The notes under the pieces: generated by a model
Database searches by the model: none
Seen by the model: the letters and a program-made list of their open reading frames with translations, nothing else
What the model was told of the DNA's origin: nothing
Position numbers and translations under genes: made by a program
Shown: piece after piece, positions 4,408 to 45,316 of the stretch
Numbering within the stretch: the stretch's first letter is position 1
How the letters are laid out: each line of letters opens with the position of its first letter
DNA from: Chloroflexota bacterium
GTDB lineage: Bacteria; Chloroflexota; Anaerolineae; DTLA01
Direction: 5' to 3'
Length of the DNA stretch: 64,000 bases
Assembly (NCBI GenBank): GCA_014874485.1
Contig: JADBJK010000027.1
Span: forward strand, 1 to 64,000

Positions 4408-4895
4408 CTAGTACCTGACTACAGGGAAGATCGTATGTTGTCATTGCGAGCGAAGCGAAGCAATCCCACGTGCGACGCACCTCCGAGGTGCGTCGCACGT
4501 GCCTTCTCACGTCATTCCGAGCGAAGCGAAGCATCTCGGTTGACGAGATTCTTCGGCGCTTCGCGCCTCAGGGTGACGGTCGCTGGGATTGCTTCGGGGG
4601 CTGCGCCCCCTCGCAATGACAACTTCTGCCTGTCATGCTGAGCGAAGCGAAGCATCTCGGTTGACGAGATTCTTCGGCGCTTCGCGCCTCAGGGTGACGG
4701 TCGCTGGGATTGCTTCGGGGGCTGCGCCCCCTCGCAATGACAACTTCTGCCTGTCATGCTGAGCGAAGCGAAGCATCTCGGTTGACGAGATTCTTCGGCG
4801 CTTCGCGCCTCAGGGTGACGGTCGCTGGGATTGCTTCGGGGGCTGCGCGCCCTCGCAATGACACGCCATCAAGGCTCTCTGTGGTAACGCACTAG
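4408..4895. repeat. Palindromic cassette R1 with three 121-bp tandem copies
   Basis: The cassette runs between outer ends CTAGTA and ACTAG. It begins with the core GTCATTGCGAGCGAAGCGA, followed by a perfect 17+1+17 palindrome (4467-4501). A 121-bp unit is then repeated three times (4512-4632, 4633-4753, 4754-4874), containing GAGCGAAGCGAAGC, a GACGAGATTC segment and GCGCCCTCGCAATGACA. The right end supplies the TAG stop (4892-4894) of the sugar transferase gene. No open reading frame in it is credible. Confidence 0.85.
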
Positions 4896-6307
4896 TAAGC
4901 GCCCCTGCCGCGAATCACCGACCACAGGGTCATGAGGAGAATCCGCAAGTCCAGGAGAAGGGAGTAGTTCTGGATATAGTAGAGGTCATCTTCTGTGTGC
5001 CAGTACATCGGTTTGTCGCTGCGCTCGTGCACCTGCCACCAGCCGGTGAGGCCCTGGGGCACGCCGAACCGCTTGCGCTGCCACGGCTCGTAGTGCTCCA
5101 CGAAGGCGGGCAATTCTGGCCTGGGGCCGACCAGGCTCATGTCGCCCTTGAGCACGTTCCACAGTTGCGGCAGTTCGTCCAGGCTCGTCCGGCGCAAGAA
5201 CCGGCCCACGCGGGTAACCCTGGGGTCGGCAGGCGACTTGAAATGCGCCCCCAGGGCCAGGGCGTTCTCCACGATGCCACGCTCCATCTGTTCGGCGCCG
5301 ACGCGCATGGTGCGGAACTTGTACATGGTGAACAGTCTGCCGCCCTCGCCCACGCGCTGCTGGCGGAAGATGACCGGGCCGGGCGAGTCCAGTTTGATGG
5401 CCAGGGCGATGGGCAGCCATGCGGGCAGGGATACCAGCAGGGCCACCGCAGAGATGGTTATGTCCATCATCCGCTTCAGGGCGCGCTGGTGGGGACGGAT
5501 GACCGGCTCCTTCAGCCCGATGAGCGGGATATCGCCGAAGGTCTCCACCGTCATGCGGTAGAACACCAGCGGGCCGAGGTCCGGGGCCACCTTGATGTTC
5601 ACGGGGAGTTGTTCCAGGTGCGCCACCACGTTGGCCATCTCTTTGTGGGCCCGCAGGGGCAGCGCCAGCACAACATCCGTGATGCCGTGCCCTGCGACGA
5701 TGCGCGGCGCATCCTGGAGCGAGCCGAGTACCGGGATGCCACCGATGTCGTGGCCCTGCTTGGCCGGATCATCGTCCAGAAAGCCCACGACTTCTAGCCC
5801 CATCCAGGCGTGTTCCAGGAACGAACGGGCCATGTCCTGGCCCAAGGCTCCGGCCCCGATGATGAGGAGGCGCGATGTCGGCAGGCGGCGCACCCCGATG
5901 CTTCGCCACAGGATTCGCAATAGCAGCCTCACGGTTACCAGTGCAACGGTGTCCAACAAGATGAAGTAAACGACGAGGAGGCGCGACACGGCCCGATAGG
6001 AGAAGTAGAGAGCGCCCGCAAACAGCAGGGATGCAATGGCGATGGCCACCAGCACGCGGGTCAGTTCACGCTCGGTGCGGAGGATGCGCCGCGGGTCGTA
6101 GGCCCCAGAGGCGATAAGGGCCACGGTCCAGGCGACGAGCGCGATGGCGAAGATGACGGGATTGAGGCCGCCGTACCGCTCCATGAAGACCTTGCCGAGC
6201 GGCAATGCACGCCGGGCCAGCAAGGCCGCGTACAGGGAGCCGAGTGTGGCGGCCATGTCCAGAATGTAGAGCGCCAGCATGTAGCGGAAAGAAGCCCTTT
6301 GCAGCAT
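4892..6307 (-). CDS. Polyprenyl-phosphate sugar-1-phosphate transferase (WbaP/CpsE-type)
   Basis: The product starts a membrane-bound exopolysaccharide or O-unit by moving a sugar-1-phosphate from a UDP-sugar to undecaprenyl phosphate. The N-terminus has about four hydrophobic helices. A Rossmann-like CoA-binding domain follows (IIGAGALGQDMARSF, ~135-260). After a further hydrophobic segment comes the bacterial sugar-transferase core with KFRTMRVGAE, the RRTSLDELPQLWNVLKGDMS block and VGPRPE. The start at 6307 (471 residues) is chosen because GGAG lies about 8 nt upstream and homology begins there. An upstream in-frame ATG at 6460 adds 51 basic residues unlike the family. A promoter lies 100 nt upstream. 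The stop codon is formed by the edge of palindromic cassette R1. No other glycan genes adjoin it. Confidence 0.9.
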   Translation of the reverse strand: MLQRASFRYMLALYILDMAATLGSLYAALLARRALPLGKVFMERYGGLNPVIFAIALVAWTVALIASGAYDPRRILRTERELTRVLVAIAIASLLFAGALYFSYRAVSRLLVVYFILLDTVALVTVRLLLRILWRSIGVRRLPTSRLLIIGAGALGQDMARSFLEHAWMGLEVVGFLDDDPAKQGHDIGGIPVLGSLQDAPRIVAGHGITDVVLALPLRAHKEMANVVAHLEQLPVNIKVAPDLGPLVFYRMTVETFGDIPLIGLKEPVIRPHQRALKRMMDITISAVALLVSLPAWLPIALAIKLDSPGPVIFRQQRVGEGGRLFTMYKFRTMRVGAEQMERGIVENALALGAHFKSPADPRVTRVGRFLRRTSLDELPQLWNVLKGDMSLVGPRPELPAFVEHYEPWQRKRFGVPQGLTGWWQVHERSDKPMYWHTEDDLYYIQNYSLLLDLRILLMTLWSVIRGRGAY

Positions 6308-6414
6308 GGATGCGACTCCAGACCTGCGTCTGCGAGAATGCGAAGCCCTGAGAATGCGAGTATCCTGCCTGAGATCACGACCGCGGCGTCCCTGCGCGCC
6401 GTTGGCTGCTCGGT

Positions 6415-6443
6415 AGTATAGCACGTGCGGCACGGCGTCGCAA
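6415..6443 (-). promoter_or_regulatory. Sigma70-type promoter for the sugar transferase
   Basis: On the minus strand, TTGCGA (6438-6443) and TATACT (6415-6420) are separated by 17 nt. The distance to the ATG at 6307 is about 100 nt. Confidence 0.6.
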
Positions 6444-6487
6444 ACTCCCTGGGTGCGCATTTGCGGTCGGATGTCCGTGCGTGCAAC

Positions 6488-6515
6488 TTGTCATTTTCGG
6501 CAATTGGGGTATAAT
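6488..6515 (+). promoter_or_regulatory. Sigma70-type promoter for the two-gene unknown operon
   Basis: TTGTCA (6488-6493) and TATAAT (6510-6515) are separated by 16 nt. Transcription would start near 6522, leaving a 260-nt leader that consists almost entirely of palindromic cassette R2 before the TTG start at 6781. Confidence 0.65.
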
Positions 6516-6528
6516 TCCTCCCAGCGCG

Positions 6529-6760
6529 TAGTGCTTGACCACAGAGGCGATTGTCTGTTGTCATTGCGAGCGGAGCGAAGCAATCTCGCGCTCCGTCTGT
6601 CATGCTGAGCGAAGCGAAGCATCGGCGAAGCGAAGCATCTCGGTTGACGAGATTCTTCAGCGCTTCGCGCCTCAGTAGGGACAATTCATGAATTGTCCCT
6701 ACGGGCGCTGCGCGCCCTCGCAATGACACACCATCAAGAACCCTGTGGCAGAGCAGTAGC
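6529..6760. repeat. Palindromic cassette R2 in a 5' leader
   Basis: The outer ends are TAGTGCTTGACCACAG on the left and CCCTGTGGCAGAGCAGTAG on the right. Inside are the core GTCATTGCGAGCGGAGCGAA, a GAGCGAAGCGAAGC duplication, the GACGAGATTC segment, and a perfect 28-bp palindrome (6675-6702) with halves GTAGGGACAATTCA and its complement. The 28-bp palindrome interrupts the usual CTCAG-to-GGGCGC sequence and so looks like a nested insertion. Confidence 0.8.
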
Positions 6761-6780
6761 ACAGGCAACGGAGGTTCATC

Positions 6781-8370
6781 TTGGTTCCGCAGAAACTGAA
6801 TCAACCAACAGATTTGACAGGGGAATTCGCCATCACCGATGATGACGTGGCGTTCCTGTACGAGTGGCTTCACCAGCAGGGCAAGCCTTGCGCGGTCAAG
6901 GACTTGGCGCTTGCGCTGGTGAGCCAACGCCTGGCCGAGCAGGCGAAGGCATTGCAGGCCAGGCTCGCCCATGGCGAACCCTACCAGCCCAAGAAGTCCT
7001 TTACAGTGGGGCAGACGCTCGTGTTCCCCGCGTTGGATTTCGCTGTGGGCAAAGTGGTGGGGTTTCGGGACGGCGTGAATCCGGCGTATCCGCCTTTCAA
7101 GGTCATTCAGGTTGAGATAGAGGGCGAGAACGAAGTCCGCGAGTTCCCCGCGGAACTGGATTTTCCCCACAAACTGAACACGGACATTGCGCAACTCCTG
7201 CAAGGTGCGTCCCCGAAGCAGGTGTATCAGGAGCACAAGGCGGCCCTGGATGCCGCGATCACGGACAAACTCACGCAGGCAGAGGCGCTTGGCTTCGTGC
7301 AGTTGGACGGGCACTGGTTCCTGCGCGAACTGTTGCCGGAGATTCACATCGGCTACCTGAACCTGGCCGAGGCGATGATTGAACTCAACAATCGCCCTGT
7401 GAGTTCCGATGAGGTGCTCAAGGAACTCGCGCTGCCCGCCGAGGTGCCCCACGAAATCCAACGGTTCGCCGTGGACGTGGCCCTGCGCGGCGACGAGCGG
7501 TTCATGAACCTGGGCACGACCAAAGAGCCGACGTGGTACCTGCGCCGCCTGCTCCCGCCAGAGGTTTTGCAGACGCCCGTCTGGCTGGCGTACACGCCGA
7601 TTGCCTTCAATCGCAAGGGCATCAGCGCAGTCCTGCACCAGGTTGAGGGTGAGATTGACGACGAGGTGAGCGACCTGGCGACCGGCCCCGCGGAGAAGCG
7701 GAAGCCCGGCGACAAGGTCTCCATCGTGCTGATCGCGCCGCACCGCAAGGCGGGCACGTTGCCGCTGACGCCGCGCACGCGCGGGTTCTTCCCCGACGGC
7801 CCAGGGGCCATCGTGCCGGTGCGGCTGATCAACGGCCAGAACGGCGAGGCGATGAACGGCTGGGTCGTTCCCGCCAACGGGTACGTCTTCGGCCTGCGCG
7901 ACTGGTACCTGCAGAACGAGATTCCGGCGGGCGCGCTCATCTGGCTGCAGAAAACCGGCAACCCGTCGGAGATCATCGTGGACTTTGAGCCACGCCGCAT
8001 GAGGCGCGAGTGGGTTCGGGTGGCGCGCGCCGACGCGGGCAGGTTGACGTTCCAGATGACGAAATACCCCATCAGTTGCGAGTACGACGAGACGATGCTG
8101 GTGGCCGAGGAAGAGTCGCCTGCGCTGAACGAACTCTGGATCGCCGAGCAGGAGCGAGGACGGCCGGTGCTGGACATCCTGCTGGAACTGTTCCCCGAAT
8201 TGGCGAAACTGGGCCCGCGTGTCCACGCCAAGACGGTGTACGCGGCGTTCAACCTCGTTCGTCGCTGCCCGCCGGGGCCGATCTTCTATGAGTTGTCGGT
8301 GAACCCGTGTTTTGTGGACGAGGGCAACGGCTACTGGGCCTTTGACCCGACCAAAATCCAGAAGCGCTAG
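6781..8370 (+). CDS. Conserved-looking protein of unknown function (529 aa)
   Basis: I do not recognise this protein. It starts with TTG at 6781, supported by GGAGG 6 nt upstream. The N-terminal ~80 residues are helical (FLYEWLHQQGKPCAVKDLALALVSQRL) and resemble a winged-helix segment. They are followed by a beta-rich block (KVVGFRDGVNPAYPPFKVIQV), a helical domain around 150-240 with a second possible winged helix, and a long mixed alpha/beta C-terminal half. No signal peptide or membrane segment is present. It is cotranscribed with the 147-residue protein 11 nt downstream. Alternatives are a DNA-binding or restriction-associated protein. The 780-residue antisense reading frame over it has no family features. 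Confidence 0.6.
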   Translation: MVPQKLNQPTDLTGEFAITDDDVAFLYEWLHQQGKPCAVKDLALALVSQRLAEQAKALQARLAHGEPYQPKKSFTVGQTLVFPALDFAVGKVVGFRDGVNPAYPPFKVIQVEIEGENEVREFPAELDFPHKLNTDIAQLLQGASPKQVYQEHKAALDAAITDKLTQAEALGFVQLDGHWFLRELLPEIHIGYLNLAEAMIELNNRPVSSDEVLKELALPAEVPHEIQRFAVDVALRGDERFMNLGTTKEPTWYLRRLLPPEVLQTPVWLAYTPIAFNRKGISAVLHQVEGEIDDEVSDLATGPAEKRKPGDKVSIVLIAPHRKAGTLPLTPRTRGFFPDGPGAIVPVRLINGQNGEAMNGWVVPANGYVFGLRDWYLQNEIPAGALIWLQKTGNPSEIIVDFEPRRMRREWVRVARADAGRLTFQMTKYPISCEYDETMLVAEEESPALNELWIAEQERGRPVLDILLELFPELAKLGPRVHAKTVYAAFNLVRRCPPGPIFYELSVNPCFVDEGNGYWAFDPTKIQKR

Positions 8371-8381
8371 GGAGCGGTAGC

Positions 8382-8825
8382 ATGACCCCGTGGGTGAAGC
8401 CAACGCTGGAAACCAAGTTTCATATAGATTTTGACTGGTGGGCCGAGAAGGGCGCCAACTTCCGCATCGTGCTGCACAGTCGGCTGTGCGACGACTGTCG
8501 GGAGAAGTATCCGCCCATGGGCTCTGTGGGCGAGATTGACTGGATTGACCCGGACACTGCGGAGATCACCCGCGTGGACGGGTTGTGGCACAGCCTGCGC
8601 ACGTGCTGTAGCCAGAAGCCGACCTACATCACGGAGTACACGCCCCTGGCCGAGGCGGCGTTCCGCATCTTCCTGGCCAACGACAACACGCCGCTCACGC
8701 CGGTGGAACTGCACAAGATGATTGGACGGAAGACGCCGGAAGCCATCCTGGCGACGCTGGGGGGCAAGCAGGTGTACATGGGCATCAAGCCCATCAACCC
8801 GCCCAAGGGACGCGCCAAGAAGTAG
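8382..8825 (+). CDS. Small protein of unknown function with CxxC and CC motifs (147 aa)
   Basis: The gene starts 11 nt after the previous one, so the two form an operon. The N-terminal half has CDDC (~37-40) and a Cys-Cys pair (~75-76), which together could bind a metal. The C-terminal half (LTPVELHKMIGRKTPEAILATLGGKQVYMGI) looks like a small winged-helix or helical domain. No membrane segment is seen and the family is not recognised. Its TAG stop (8823-8825) is directly continuous with palindromic cassette R3. Confidence 0.6.
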   Translation: MTPWVKPTLETKFHIDFDWWAEKGANFRIVLHSRLCDDCREKYPPMGSVGEIDWIDPDTAEITRVDGLWHSLRTCCSQKPTYITEYTPLAEAAFRIFLANDNTPLTPVELHKMIGRKTPEAILATLGGKQVYMGIKPINPPKGRAKK

Positions 8826-9050
8826 TACTTTACCACAGGGATTCTTGATAGTTTGTCATTGCGAGGGCGCGCAGCGCCCGTAGGGACAATTCGTGAATTG
8901 TCCCTACTAAGGCCGAAGCGCCGAAGAATCTCGTCAACCGAGATGCTTTGCTTCGCAGTGACGTGAGAAGGCACGTGCGACGCACCTCCGAGGTGCGTCG
9001 CACGTGGGATGGCTTCGCTTCGCCCGCAATGACAAGTGGTGAAGGAGTAG
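8823..9050. repeat. Palindromic cassette R3
   Basis: The cassette begins at the TAG stop of the upstream gene and continues TACTTTACCACAGGGATTC. It carries the GTCATTGCGAG core, a 28-bp palindrome (8880-8907) nearly identical to the one in R2, and the perfect 17+1+17 palindrome (8972-9006). It is in reverse orientation to R1 and R7. The rest of the gap contains only a terminator. Confidence 0.8.
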
Positions 9051-9066
9051 TCGCCCCAGGACAACG

Positions 9067-9094
9067 AAAAGCGCCCGCAGAAGGGCGCTTTTTT
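9067..9094 (+). terminator. Rho-independent terminator
   Basis: A 10-bp stem (9067-9076 with 9083-9092, AAAAGCGCCC and complement) closes a 6-nt loop and is followed by a run of T to 9094. It lies downstream of the two-gene unknown operon. Confidence 0.85.
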
Positions 9095-9201
9095 GTTGCC
9101 GTGCGCCCGGCGTGGAGATTTTGTGAACTCGCGCGTTTGGAGCGGAACTCCGGGCCCGCCTGCAGCGTTTATCGCTGTAGATACGGCAATGGAGGTCTCC
9201 C

Positions 9202-9411
9202 ATGAGAATGCTGCGCACGACGACGCTTCCGATGATGGGCCTCACTGCGGTGTTCGGACTGGCGCAGGTGGGGGCGGCGGCGTTTCTCATCCAGCGGGCC
9301 GAGTCGTATCATCCGTTCACGAGCCTGGAGCGGGTGTTGGTTGTTGGGGCGGTGTTGCTGCTGGTGTGTGCGGAGATGCTGGTGGCGGCGGGCGGGGCCA
9401 GACCCGACTAG
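9202..9411 (+). CDS. Small two-helix membrane protein (69 aa)
   Basis: The ATG at 9202 is preceded by GGAGG at a suitable distance. The product has two predicted membrane helices (about residues 10-30 and 42-63) joined by a short polar loop. No family is recognised and no partner gene adjoins it. It stands alone between a terminator and a repeat block. It is supported mainly by the ribosome-binding site and clean hydrophobic pattern. Confidence 0.5.
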   Translation: MRMLRTTTLPMMGLTAVFGLAQVGAAAFLIQRAESYHPFTSLERVLVVGAVLLLVCAEMLVAAGGARPD

Positions 9412-41455: not shown

Positions 41456-41668
41456 GCAATCCCGGCAGGCTGGCATTCTGAGTGGCGAAGCCGCGAAGAA
41501 TCTCGTCAACCGAGATGCTTCGCTCACAATGGCGTGAGAAGACACGTGCGACGCACCTCCGAGGTGCGTCGCACGTGGGCCGACCGGATTGCTTCGCTTC
41601 GCTCGCAATGACAGGCAGAGGTGTCATTGCGAGGGTGTGCAGCGCCCGAAGCAATCCCCCGCAATGAC
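41456..41668. repeat. Palindromic cassette R8
   Basis: This mosaic contains GCAATCCCGGCAGGCTGGC, the GAATCTCGTCAACCGAG segment, the perfect 17+1+17 palindrome (41543-41577) and two GTCATTGCGAG/GCGAGGGTG elements. It lies between divergent genes and has no gene of its own. Confidence 0.8.
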
Positions 41669-41694
41669 AGAACCGAGTCCGTCCAGCCTCGCAG

Positions 41695-41724
41695 TTGCGC
41701 GGCAGCGGGAGTTGCCGCTATACT
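41695..41724 (+). promoter_or_regulatory. Promoter of the FG-GAP protein gene
   Basis: TTGCGC (41695-41700) and TATACT (41719-41724) are separated by 18 nt, with the ATG 47 nt downstream. Confidence 0.55.
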
Positions 41725-41770
41725 GCGCGTGGCGCCCGTGGGTCGCAGGGGCTGCCCGTTGGAGGTCGGC

Positions 41771-44371
41771 ATGAGATTCCGCGCTCTCTCGTTGGCTCTG
41801 CTTCTGGCCGGGGTGCTCGCCGTCGGGTCGCAGGGCGAGGCGACGGACGCCCGTCCGGTGCTGGCGGCTGCGCTGCATTTCCCCGCGGGGCGCGCCCCCG
41901 TGGCCCTGCTGGGCCTGGATGCCAACGCGGACGGAATCCCTGACATCGTGGCGGCGGCCAGGGATGACGATAGCATCGCGTTCTTGCGGGGCGTCGGGAA
42001 CGGCACGTTCCGCAGCGCCGTGCTTTCTCCGGCCTGCCCCGCCATCACGGCGCTGGCGTATGCGGATTTCAACCGCGATGGCCGCGTGGACTTGGCCTGC
42101 GTGGGCCAGACCGAGGAGGCGGTGCGCGTCCTGCAGGGCAGTGGTGCGGGCACCTGGGCGCTGCGCGTGTCGTTGCCGCTGGAGGGGCTACCCGGCGGGG
42201 TGGCTGTGTCCGACGTGAACGGGGATGGGCGGGCCGATGTGGTCGTGTCGGTCCCCGGTGGCGGCAAGGTGGTCGTCTTCCCTGGGCGCGGCGACGGCAC
42301 GTTTGCGACCGGGCTGGTCGTGGAAGTGTCGCCGGGGGTGGCCGATGTTGCGCTCGCGGACTTTGACGACGACGGGGTTGTGGACATGGCGGCGGCGATT
42401 CCCACCGCGGGCCGCATATCCCTGCTCGCAGGGACGGGTTCTGGCTCGTTTGCGCCGGCGGGCGCTCTCCTCGCGTCGCCGGGCTTGCATGGCCTCGTTG
42501 CTGCCGATGCGAACGCGGATGGTCATGTGGACCTGGTGGCGGTGGATTCGGCAACCGACCGGGTGTTCTGGTGGCGCGGCCTCGGCGACGGGACCTTTGC
42601 CGAGCCGCTCTACGCACTGGCGGACCGAGAGCCGATGGGTGTGGCCGTGGGCGACGTGAACGGGGACGGTTTGCCGGACCTGCTCACCGCGAACGCTGCG
42701 GGGCGGACGCTGTCGGTTGTCCACTCCTCGGCCGGGGGGCTGGGCGTGGCATCTCATGTGCCTGCGGGCGAAACCCCGGCGGCGGTGGCCCTGGCCGACT
42801 GGAACCGCGACGGGTGGCTGGACGCGGCGGTGGCCGACGCCTCGCGGGACAGGGTTGTGCTCTTCCTGGGCGATGGCGAGGGCGGGCTGGCATCCGCGCG
42901 CAGGTATCCGGTCGGCGACGGGCCGGTTGCCGTGCGGCTCGCGGACGTGGATGGGGATGCTTGGCCCGACGTGCTGGTGCTCAACAGCCAGGGCCGGACG
43001 TTGACGTTGTTTCGGGGCAGGGGAGTTGGCGGGCTTGAGCCGTGGGCCGCGCTGGGCACCGGCAGTTATCCCCGCGATGTCGTCGCCGGCGATTTCAACC
43101 GCGATGGGCGGGCGGATGTCGTCATCGCCAACATGGGGAGCGGGGATGTGTGGGCATATTTCGCCACCGCCGATGGCACCTGGGATGGGCCGCGCACGAC
43201 TTTCCTGTCCGGGTGGCCCGAAGGACTGGCGGCAGGCGACTTCAACGGCGATGGCAACCCCGATTTGCTCGTGGGCGACACGTTGGCCGATGCCGTGCGG
43301 GTGCTGTACGGCACAAGCGGCGGCGATTTCCACGAGGGCGCGCTGCAGTACGCGGCCGGGCCCGACCCCCGACATCTGGCCGTGGCCGACCTGAACCGCG
43401 ACGGCAGCCCGGACGCCGTGGTGGGGTGCGAGGCCGGGCAGCAGATCACCGTGTTGCTCGGCACGTCGGCGGGGACGTTTTTGAAGTCCGCATTGCCCGC
43501 CGGCGGGCGGGTTGGCGGGCTGGATGTGGGCGATGTCAACGGCGATGGCGTGCCCGACATCGCCATTGCGCTTCGGGACGCGGGCCAAGTGGGGATTCTG
43601 CTGGGCAACGGGAATGGCTCGTTCGGAACGATGCGCAAGTTCGGCGTTGGCGCGGACCCGACGGGGATTGTCCTCGCCGATGTGGACGGCGACGGTGCGC
43701 TGGACGTGGCGACGGCGAACCGAGGTTCGGGGAGCGTCAGTGTGCTTCTGGGGGACGGGAGCGGCGGGTTCGGCGGCCCGCAGGATTACGAGGCCGGGCT
43801 GTGGCCGGCGGACGTGGGCGCAGCGGATGCGGACCGCGATGGCGATGCCGATGTCTTCGCGGCCGACGCCCACAGCGATGCATTGTGGGCGCTGGTGAGC
43901 ACGGCGGCGCCACACCCCCGCGTGTTCAAAGGCGACTTGCTGGATCCCATCCGCGCGGGCGACAATCAGCGCTACTTCATCACCGTAACGAACCTGCGGC
44001 GCGTGCCGATCACGCAGGTGGTGCTCACTGACACGCTGCCCCCGGGCCTGGATTTCGTGAGCGCGGACTCGGGCGGCGTGGGGCAGTGGGGCAATCCCAT
44101 CGTTACGTGGAATCTGGGCACGTTTGGGCCGGGCGAGGAGCGGACGATTCGCCTGGTCGCGCACACCCGCTCGTCGCTGGCGGGCGGGTCGGTGTTCACG
44201 AACACAGTGGTGCTGGCCTGCGCCGAGTGTGTCCCGACGACGGCGCGGGCGGATACGACGGTGCTGGCCCCGACCCCGACGCCTAGCCCCACGCCTACGG
44301 CGTCGCCCGTGCCCACGCGCGTGCCGGTGTCGCATTGGCTTCGGCTGCCGGTGATTTGGGTGGGCAAGTGA
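41771..44371 (+). CDS. Secreted FG-GAP/VCBS-repeat protein with C-terminal DUF11-like domain
   Basis: The 866-residue protein has a signal peptide and then about 14 repeats with calcium-binding-type loops (D-x-N-x-D-G-x-x-D, such as DFNRDGRVD and DVNGDGRAD), expected to form beta-propellers. A DUF11-like Ig domain follows (NQRYFITVTNLRR...WNLGTFGPGEERTIRLVA). It ends with a Thr/Pro tail and a short hydrophobic C-terminus with LPVIWVGK. GGAGG just before ATG 41771 sets the start. It is likely a surface adhesin or extracellular binding protein; no catalytic motif is seen. Confidence 0.85.
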   Translation: MRFRALSLALLLAGVLAVGSQGEATDARPVLAAALHFPAGRAPVALLGLDANADGIPDIVAAARDDDSIAFLRGVGNGTFRSAVLSPACPAITALAYADFNRDGRVDLACVGQTEEAVRVLQGSGAGTWALRVSLPLEGLPGGVAVSDVNGDGRADVVVSVPGGGKVVVFPGRGDGTFATGLVVEVSPGVADVALADFDDDGVVDMAAAIPTAGRISLLAGTGSGSFAPAGALLASPGLHGLVAADANADGHVDLVAVDSATDRVFWWRGLGDGTFAEPLYALADREPMGVAVGDVNGDGLPDLLTANAAGRTLSVVHSSAGGLGVASHVPAGETPAAVALADWNRDGWLDAAVADASRDRVVLFLGDGEGGLASARRYPVGDGPVAVRLADVDGDAWPDVLVLNSQGRTLTLFRGRGVGGLEPWAALGTGSYPRDVVAGDFNRDGRADVVIANMGSGDVWAYFATADGTWDGPRTTFLSGWPEGLAAGDFNGDGNPDLLVGDTLADAVRVLYGTSGGDFHEGALQYAAGPDPRHLAVADLNRDGSPDAVVGCEAGQQITVLLGTSAGTFLKSALPAGGRVGGLDVGDVNGDGVPDIAIALRDAGQVGILLGNGNGSFGTMRKFGVGADPTGIVLADVDGDGALDVATANRGSGSVSVLLGDGSGGFGGPQDYEAGLWPADVGAADADRDGDADVFAADAHSDALWALVSTAAPHPRVFKGDLLDPIRAGDNQRYFITVTNLRRVPITQVVLTDTLPPGLDFVSADSGGVGQWGNPIVTWNLGTFGPGEERTIRLVAHTRSSLAGGSVFTNTVVLACAECVPTTARADTTVLAPTPTPSPTPTASPVPTRVPVSHWLRLPVIWVGK

Positions 44372-44459
44372 AACACGGCCCGCCTGCGCGGGAGGTGCAA
44401 CCTCAGCAGAGCGGGTTCCATGTTGTGTTGGTAAGTTCATACAGACAGATACCCTGCCG

Positions 44460-44533
44460 CGTCATTGCGAGCGAAGCGAAGCAATCCCGCGCTCGCACAG
44501 AGATTGCTTCGGGGCTTCGCCCCTCGCAATGAC
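44460..44533. repeat. Palindromic cassette R9 upstream of tRNA-Gln
   Basis: A 74-bp copy runs from GTCATTGCGAGCGAAGCGA to CTCGCAATGACA. It lies 90 nt upstream of the tRNA. Confidence 0.8.
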
Positions 44534-44581
44534 AGCGCTCCCCCGACCGAAGGCGAAACCGAATCGGCGGAGGCCCGATTT

Positions 44582-44610
44582 TTGCATTGGCGGCGGATTT
44601 GTGCTATCAT
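44582..44610 (+). promoter_or_regulatory. Promoter of tRNA-Gln
   Basis: TTGCAT (44582-44587) and TATCAT (44605-44610) are separated by 17 nt, with the tRNA starting 12 nt after the -10 box. Confidence 0.6.
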
Positions 44611-44621
44611 AGGTGCGGTTC

Positions 44622-44692
44622 TGGGGGATCGTCTAGCGGCAAGACAACTGACTCTGGATCAGTCGACCCAGGTTCGAATCCTGGTCCCCCAG
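44622..44692 (+). tRNA. tRNA-Gln (CUG anticodon)
   Basis: Acceptor arms TGGGGGA and TCCCCCA pair, the anticodon loop CTCTGGA reads CTG, the D-arm contains GTCTAGCGGCAAGAC and the T-arm GGTTCGAATC. CCA is not encoded. glnS lies about 730 nt downstream. Confidence 0.95.
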
Positions 44693-44768
44693 CCTGATGC
44701 AGTGTCCGGCTGGCAGAAGGCGATTCTGCGAGTCGGATTTTTGTTATGGCGCAGCGACCCCGCTAGGC

Positions 44769-45316
44769 GTGAGATTGCTTCGCTTCGCTCGCAATGGCGG
44801 ATGATGGGGTGTCATGGGCACGTGCGACGCACCTCCGAGGTGCGTCGCACGTGGGGCCGACTGGATGACTTCGCTTCGCTCGCAATGACAGGTAAGGGTT
44901 GTCATTGCGAGGGGCGAAGCCCCGAAGCAATCCCCGGGGTGCGAGATTGCTTCGCTTCGCTCGCAATGGCGGATGATGGGGTGTCATGGGCACGTGCGAC
45001 GCACCTCCGAGGTGCGTCGCACGTGGGGCCGACTGGATGACTTCGCTTCGCTCGCAATGACAGGTAAGGGTTGTCATTGCGAGGGGCGAAGCCCCGAAGC
45101 AATCCCCGGGGTGCGAGATTGCTTCGCTTCGCTCGCAATGGCGGATGATGGGGTGTCATGGGCACGTGCGACGCACCTCCGAGGTGCGTCGCACGTGGGG
45201 CCGACTGGATGACTTCGCTTCGCTCGCAATGACAGGCAGAGGTGTCATTGCGAGGGTGCGAAGCACCCGAAGCAATCCCCGGGGTGCGAGATTGCTTCGC
45301 TTCGCTCGCAATGACA
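44769..45316. repeat. Palindromic cassette R10 with three 172-bp tandem copies
   Basis: Tandem copies begin about 172 bp apart (ATGATGGGGT at 44801, 44973 and 45145). Each contains GATTGCTTCGCTTCGCTCGC, the perfect 17+1+17 palindrome (44819-44853, 44991-45025, 45163-45197) and GTCATTGCGAGGGGCGAAGC. The copies are nearly identical, implying recent amplification. No gene is seen between tRNA-Gln and glnS. Confidence 0.9.

Follow-up and report, generated by a model that had tools for sequence, protein, structure and literature searches.

Two adjacent genes in the stretch of DNA analysed here (the window; 64,000 nucleotides) are a core pair of the class Anaerolineae. The large gene (6781..8370, forward strand; 529 codons plus stop) and the small gene (8382..8825, forward strand; 147 codons plus stop) both have relatives across the class, and in its genomes the small gene follows the large one almost without exception. 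Predicted folds lead to a tentative reading, to which we give somewhat less than an even chance: that the pair is a chromosomal, two-protein DNA-binding regulator, associated with promoters or with RNA polymerase and common to Anaerolineae. Because the pair is near-universal in a large class, as sampled, and belongs to no curated family, it is likely to be important to Anaerolineae biology.

A conserved gene pair

The layout is as the original prediction described it: two genes on the same strand, with 11 nt between the stop codon of the large gene and the ATG of the small one. The large gene starts with TTG at 6781, which is the sole ATG, GTG, or TTG from the upstream in-frame stop to about ten codons beyond it. 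The 60 loci first fetched come from 58 distinct assemblies, L031 being a repeat of L002 and L032 of L018; in them the two genes are separated by -4 to 160 nt. A candidate sigma-70-like promoter (6488..6515, forward strand; TTGTCA-16-TATAAT, 11/12) lies upstream of the large gene. It is a consensus match only; positions 6400-9200 hold three such consensus sites, against 0.5 expected. No Rfam family reaches its gathering score in 6300-9300. The flanking genes, labelled from a reading of their open frames, are sugar-transferase-like on the 5' side (opposite strand) and alcohol-dehydrogenase-like on the 3' side.

The window also carries a dispersed 26-base repeat, CATTGCGAGCGNAGCGAAGCAATCTC, present in 13 copies (at most three mismatches; none expected) and found on both sides of the gene pair. 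Seven copies lie at 4442, 6562, 9006, 9615, 14121, 25206, and 28029; a further six lie within 41585-45288, at 41585, 44463, 44771, 44943, 45115, and 45288. The four at 44771-45288 are spaced almost regularly, by 172-173 bases.

Among 60 close genomes, counting the window's own, 56 contain the large gene and 57 the small one. The large gene is missing from G012, G042, G044, and G047; of these G044 has the small gene, and G012 and G047 belong to one family. Apart from a second, weak partial match to the large protein in four of the 60, each genome with the gene has one full-length copy. A broader sample of 400 genomes from the phylum lists 55 of the same class, and 54 of these have both genes (G317 has neither). 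With the two sets pooled, 96 distinct genomes carry the large gene, and all but one of them (95) have the small gene immediately downstream in the same orientation. In the exception, G023, the two genes sit at the ends of different contigs, which looks like a contig break. Synteny across Chloroflexota had been proposed as a check: it holds within Anaerolineae and fails phylum-wide, the linked pair being a feature of one class.

Named relatives of the large protein are those of 'Anaerolineae bacterium isolate A05DMB-I-30' (97% identity) and of a Caldilineales bacterium (40%), in keeping with which the window is assigned to Anaerolineae, Chloroflexota. Against two congeners, dN/dS is 0.107 and 0.072 for the large gene and 0.074 and 0 for the small one, so purifying selection on the pair is strong. 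Relatives across a bacterial class, together with these low ratios, argue that neither gene is a chance open reading frame.

Neither protein matches a curated family. Pfam gives nothing at curated thresholds for either (best, DUF4777 at E 0.073 and DIPSY at E 0.067), nor do NCBIfam (best E 0.2), PHROGs (best E 0.3), or PADLOC (no match); these four collections assign no nuclease, methylase, or ATPase family to either protein. No sequence relative was found in the PDB, where nothing falls below E 0.17. The original suggestion of a co-conserved pair of unplaced proteins is thereby supported at curated thresholds, by synteny in the class as well as by these searches, and no search linked either protein clearly to a known family with an assigned function. 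The literature covered, which is partial and leaves subscription journals mostly outside, yielded no paper joining 'B3 domain' and 'Chloroflex' and no such family name; given that coverage, we claim no priority for a class-wide bacterial B3-type pair.

Two further comparisons returned null results. Co-evolution of the two proteins beyond that with a control protein was not detected in a small mirror-tree test of 13 genomes: with the control partialled out, the distances give a partial r of 0.098, and 572 of 2000 permutations were at least as high. Likewise, when the neighbours of 20 long Anaerolineae loci were compared with each other from a rough gene list, none recurred in more than about six of 31 other loci, frames antisense to the pair aside.

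Predicted modules of the two proteins

The large protein was modelled with AlphaFold2 from three sequences. The model is poor overall (mean pLDDT 50.8, pTM 0.30) and locally fair (block means 56-85 over residues 301-400), and the folds described below are predictions. Read together with profile comparisons, it suggests five modules in a row, counted from the N-terminus: a segment resembling a winged helix, a Tudor barrel of CarD type, a winged helix of HARE type, a B3 barrel, and another winged helix at the C-terminus.

Residues 308-407 (7702..8001, forward strand) are predicted to form a B3 pseudobarrel, the fold of a DNA-binding domain familiar chiefly from transcription factors of plants. 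In the VIA structure comparison the segment matches VAL1 (Z 12.3, rmsd 2.1 over 97 residues of the predicted model), followed by FUS3 (12.2), ARF5 (11.7), LlaJI (10.1), BfiI (9.2), EcoRII-N (7.6), and NgoAVII (7.5). The first 22 rows are 19 plant B3 proteins and three rows of LlaJI and BfiI; some of the matched chains are ones that we take to be B3 domains, their titles not saying so. The bacterial B3 matches are all restriction enzymes: LlaJI, BfiI, EcoRII, NgoAVII, and UbaLAI. Foldseek returns B3 rows at probability 1.00 with E values of 4.4e-3 to 3.5e-2, and none at E ≤0.001. By sequence, no Pfam B3 match (PF02362) occurs among 58 full-length class members or 72 barrel segments (of 84 prepared, after removal of 12 near-duplicates or outliers), and a PDB search with the barrel profile returned no B3 match. 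The barrels do share a conserved motif, G-L-x2-W-Y...G-A-x-I-x-L. A loose pattern with this spacing, which resembles that of the plant B3 motif, fits 45 of the 72.

The barrel is also the sole clearly basic module of the large protein. Its mean net charge over the 58 class members is +5.4, and the remaining modules, like the linker, average between -9.4 and +0.3. It ends in a conserved basic stretch, PRRMRREWVR (residues 404-413; 7990..8019, forward strand), in which R406, W411, and R413 are each kept in at least 90% of the 58 rows. The barrel may bind DNA in a sequence-specific manner. The homologous barrel outside the class is acidic (mean -6.2, 19 rows), which counts against DNA binding there, so the property does not extend to the family as a whole.

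The CarD likeness of residues 73-133 (6997..7179, forward strand), a Tudor/SH3-type barrel, has some independent profile support, unlike the B3 fold. By structure the segment matches Thermus thermophilus CarD (4l5g; VIA Z 7.1, rmsd 2.0 over 57 residues, 25% identity) and, with Z 7.4, chain H of an AfsR transcription complex. The segment also fits further barrels of the Tudor type, among them a Tudor domain at Z 6.6, so the fold by itself does not single out RNA polymerase as the binding partner; in Foldseek, chromo-barrels (MSL3, E 0.018) rank above CarD (E 0.065). By profile, hhalign scores the region at 72.5% against 19 CarD sequences of relatives, with 100 column shuffles reaching at most 10.3%; control barrels compared with the large protein score 0.4% (EF-P) and 1.9% (KOW). 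Against the CarD reading counts the related TRCF barrel, which reaches only 4.5%, compared with 97.3% for CarD against TRCF as the positive control. Pfam finds no CarD_TRCF_RID domain (PF02559) in the large protein or in any of the 58 members, and the sole PF02559 match in the window's genome is a 1195-residue frame (G000:C56), taken as TRCF. CarD barrels contact RNA polymerase, and by this likeness the large protein might bind the polymerase through residues 73-133.

Stand-alone CarD genes are unevenly distributed in the class: among the window's genome and 40 relatives, a short CarD-like frame occurs in 15 of 41, and the window's genome has none.

The remaining segments of the large protein are helical or winged-helix-like. 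Winged-helix-like ends had been predicted from the sequence. The C-terminal end bears this out: residues 447-529 (8119..8367, forward strand) match the winged helices of FoxP3 (VIA Z 8.3) and BlaI (Z 8.1) in the model. At the N-terminal end, residues 14-64 (6820..6972, forward strand) are helical at pLDDT 26-43, and a winged helix there is presumed and unproven. Their profile nevertheless resembles that of the small protein's winged helix (64.9%, with none of 100 shuffles as high); repeats among the modules reach 64.9% at most by hhalign. A middle segment, residues 190-258 (7348..7554, forward strand), is HARE-HTH-like and not confidently modelled. Compared with HARE-HTH by hhalign, residues 147-262 score 44.4% and residues 447-529 score 45.6%, in each case with none of 100 shuffles (of columns, for the middle segment) as high. 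The first segment of the large protein, at 5.5% with one of 100 shuffles as high, does not stand out. Pfam detects no HARE-HTH (PF05066) in the window's genome, and the best value among the 58 members is E 0.14, in one member.

The small protein is modelled with a mean pLDDT of 70.7 as an N-terminal alpha/beta part and a C-terminal winged helix (residues 87-141; 8640..8804, forward strand). Over the winged helix it matches LexA at VIA Z 2.8, and a Pol III winged helix at Z 4.0; nothing exceeds Z 4.0 in VIA, and Foldseek returns nothing at E ≤0.001. A WH_GDS1 match is present in 16 of the 58 small members (best E 2.6e-4). The CxxC and CC motifs noticed originally are there, as C36-x2-C39 and C75-C76 (8487..8609, forward strand), and the sequence pattern suggests a probable metal site. 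All four positions (36, 39, 75, and 76) hold Cys or His in 39 of 58 members. Ten members have Cys at 36, 39, and 76 but a different residue at 75, and in nine both Cys of the CxxC are replaced, eight of these also lacking C76. Such joint loss is how a metal site behaves, and hence fits one.

Homologues outside the class

The two proteins have separate relatives elsewhere in the phylum. Homologues of the large protein occur outside the class in 56 of the 400 sampled genomes, and homologues of the small protein in 41, always in different genome families, with none shared. The 27 large homologues that were fetched (530-725 aa) match only from about residue 130-160 onward. In six of these 27 loci, a short upstream open reading frame shows a weak match to residues 1-50 of the large protein (i-E 0.003-0.61). 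The N-terminal half of the large protein was found in none of the 41 genomes outside the class that carry a homologue of the small protein, a search that had no positive-control genome and shows little. In its linked form, the pair seems to have arisen within the class from parts that already existed.

Within the class, two genomes from different families (L069, L070) retain just 250-265 residues from the N-terminal end of the large protein, and the small gene still follows. Retention of just that half along with the small protein points to the N-terminal half as the small protein's partner. The C-terminal half, barrel and winged helix, appears in turn in a genome outside the class (G328), at residues 1560-1773 of a 2193-residue open frame (L062:6404-12982) whose N-terminal part matches Sacsin as well as TmtA defence models (TmtA E 4.3e-125). 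A reverse search with it over the 400 genomes returned itself, the window's large protein (E 3.4e-9), and three other proteins of the class. Presence inside a TmtA-like protein is as expected for a movable recognition module. Neighbours of the G328 frame match the mad3 model and, weakly, the DpdF model.

Gene neighbourhoods outside the class as a whole point several ways. Downstream of the large homologue there are often HEAT-repeat, PIG-L, FemAB, and Mur-ligase genes, and upstream of it a ROK gene (L061, L063-L067, L171-L190). By BLAST, the HEAT-repeat, FemAB, and Mur-ligase neighbours recur in as many as 22, 19, and 15, respectively, of the 26 other fetched loci, families having been named for a few of these genes. 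Of 20 loci with the small homologue, seven (L094, L103-L108) have MoeA nearby, four of them as PheS-PheT-MoeA, and five (L097, L099, L101, L102, L112) have YebC nearby, three of them with RuvC-RuvA. This suggests two different older contexts of the small protein.

Searches among mobile elements gave little. No relative was confirmed in viral contigs from 18 and 141 pattern matches; matches were at chance level in phages (large protein only, best E 3) and in plasmids (small protein only, best E 2); and a fold search of the large model against viral predicted structures found nothing at E ≤0.001. A defence or mobile origin was rejected on these searches, along with the PADLOC and PHROGs results.

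Possible functions and known systems

How might such a pair work? The B3 barrel, as the basic module, would read DNA. The acidic N-terminal half of the large protein would contact RNA polymerase, in the manner of a CarD barrel, or the small protein, or both. The small protein, encoded in the same operon and combining a winged helix with a probable metal site, would partner the large one, attached to its N-terminal half. The gene pair, its conservation, synteny, and selection, and the Cys/His pattern are observed, whereas the folds are predicted. We infer that the proteins would bind DNA, RNA polymerase, a metal, and each other, and would act in transcription; the original idea of a new function is likewise drawn from predicted folds. 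Besides the poor overall model and the missing sequence match to B3, other observations count against this regulator: the neighbouring genes, none of which recurs widely, suggest no pathway; the metal site is absent in nine of 58 members; and the small mirror-tree test detected no co-evolution. In a stronger form, the pair would be a class-wide general transcription factor, combining a plant-like B3 reader with a CarD-like contact to RNA polymerase in a fixed complex with the small metal-site winged-helix protein. We regard that form as rather unlikely; if true, it would provide a bacterial B3 factor for gene regulation, not restriction.

The same modules might instead belong to a nucleoid-organising protein, or to one of DNA maintenance (replication, recombination, or repair), that coats or marks DNA while the small protein acts as an accessory. 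Several winged helices and class-wide presence fit such a role, as does the proximity of small homologues outside the class to YebC-RuvC-RuvA in three of 20 loci, and to YebC in two more. However, the more frequent MoeA surroundings, with PheS-PheT in four loci, mark the RuvA link as lineage-local, the 20 Anaerolineae loci offer no widely recurring neighbour, and the CarD-like barrel is left unexplained; we consider this role unlikely, though a serious rival. The same holds for a structural function, or one in binding proteins, that involves no specific recognition of DNA, in which barrels and winged helices serve as protein-protein modules, for example around envelope genes. The acidic barrels outside the class, and the HEAT-repeat, FemAB, and Mur-ligase genes downstream in many loci there, speak for it, but class members have a basic barrel with the conserved basic stretch at its end, and their loci show no widely recurring neighbour.

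A sensor of DNA modification or of foreign DNA, of the defence type, is suggested by the bacterial B3 chains matched, all restriction enzymes, and by the barrel and winged-helix half inside the TmtA-like protein of G328. HARE-HTH, too, is named after restriction endonucleases, among others. Yet defence genes usually spread patchily, and this pair is near-universal in its class, with no PADLOC match, no confirmed relative in viral contigs, and only chance-level matches in phages (large protein) and plasmids (small protein). Near-universal presence and the lack of any recognised catalytic domain (nuclease, methylase, or ATPase) make a defence role less likely, and we judge it decidedly improbable.

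Should the B3 and CarD-like readings both hold, the large protein would be a bacterial B3 protein outside the restriction enzymes, and the pair would add to the transcription or chromosome machinery throughout the lineage. The origin of the B3 domain and the control of transcription in these Chloroflexota would then become testable in cultured Anaerolineae.

Among known systems, the HARE-HTH domain (PF05066) resembles the middle and C-terminal winged-helix segments of the large protein by profile; unlike it, they have no Pfam match in the window's genome. The RNA-polymerase-interacting domain of CarD and CdnL (PF02559) resembles the Tudor-like barrel by fold and profile comparison, but in the large protein the barrel is not N-terminal, further modules follow it, and Pfam does not match it. 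A working analogy, by description only and not a relationship, is offered by CarD and CarG of Myxococcus. There CarD combines a Tudor barrel with a DNA-binding part of its own, reading DNA through AT-hook repeats, and works with CarG, a zinc-associated partner of 170 residues that does not bind DNA (PMC4374960).

The closest structural likeness is to the B3 domains of plants (VAL1, FUS3, ARF) and bacteria (BfiI, LlaJI, EcoRII-N, NgoAVII), which the predicted pseudobarrel at residues 308-407 resembles, unlike known B3 proteins in having no detectable B3 sequence similarity. Bacterial B3 barrels are described in the restriction enzymes CglI and NgoAVII (PMC4267653). In contrast to a B3-type restriction endonuclease, neither protein of the pair matches a recognised nuclease or methylase family, though an undescribed one may be present; and unlike the barrels of the restriction enzymes, that of the large protein is not joined to a nuclease but chained with winged helices and a CarD-like barrel.
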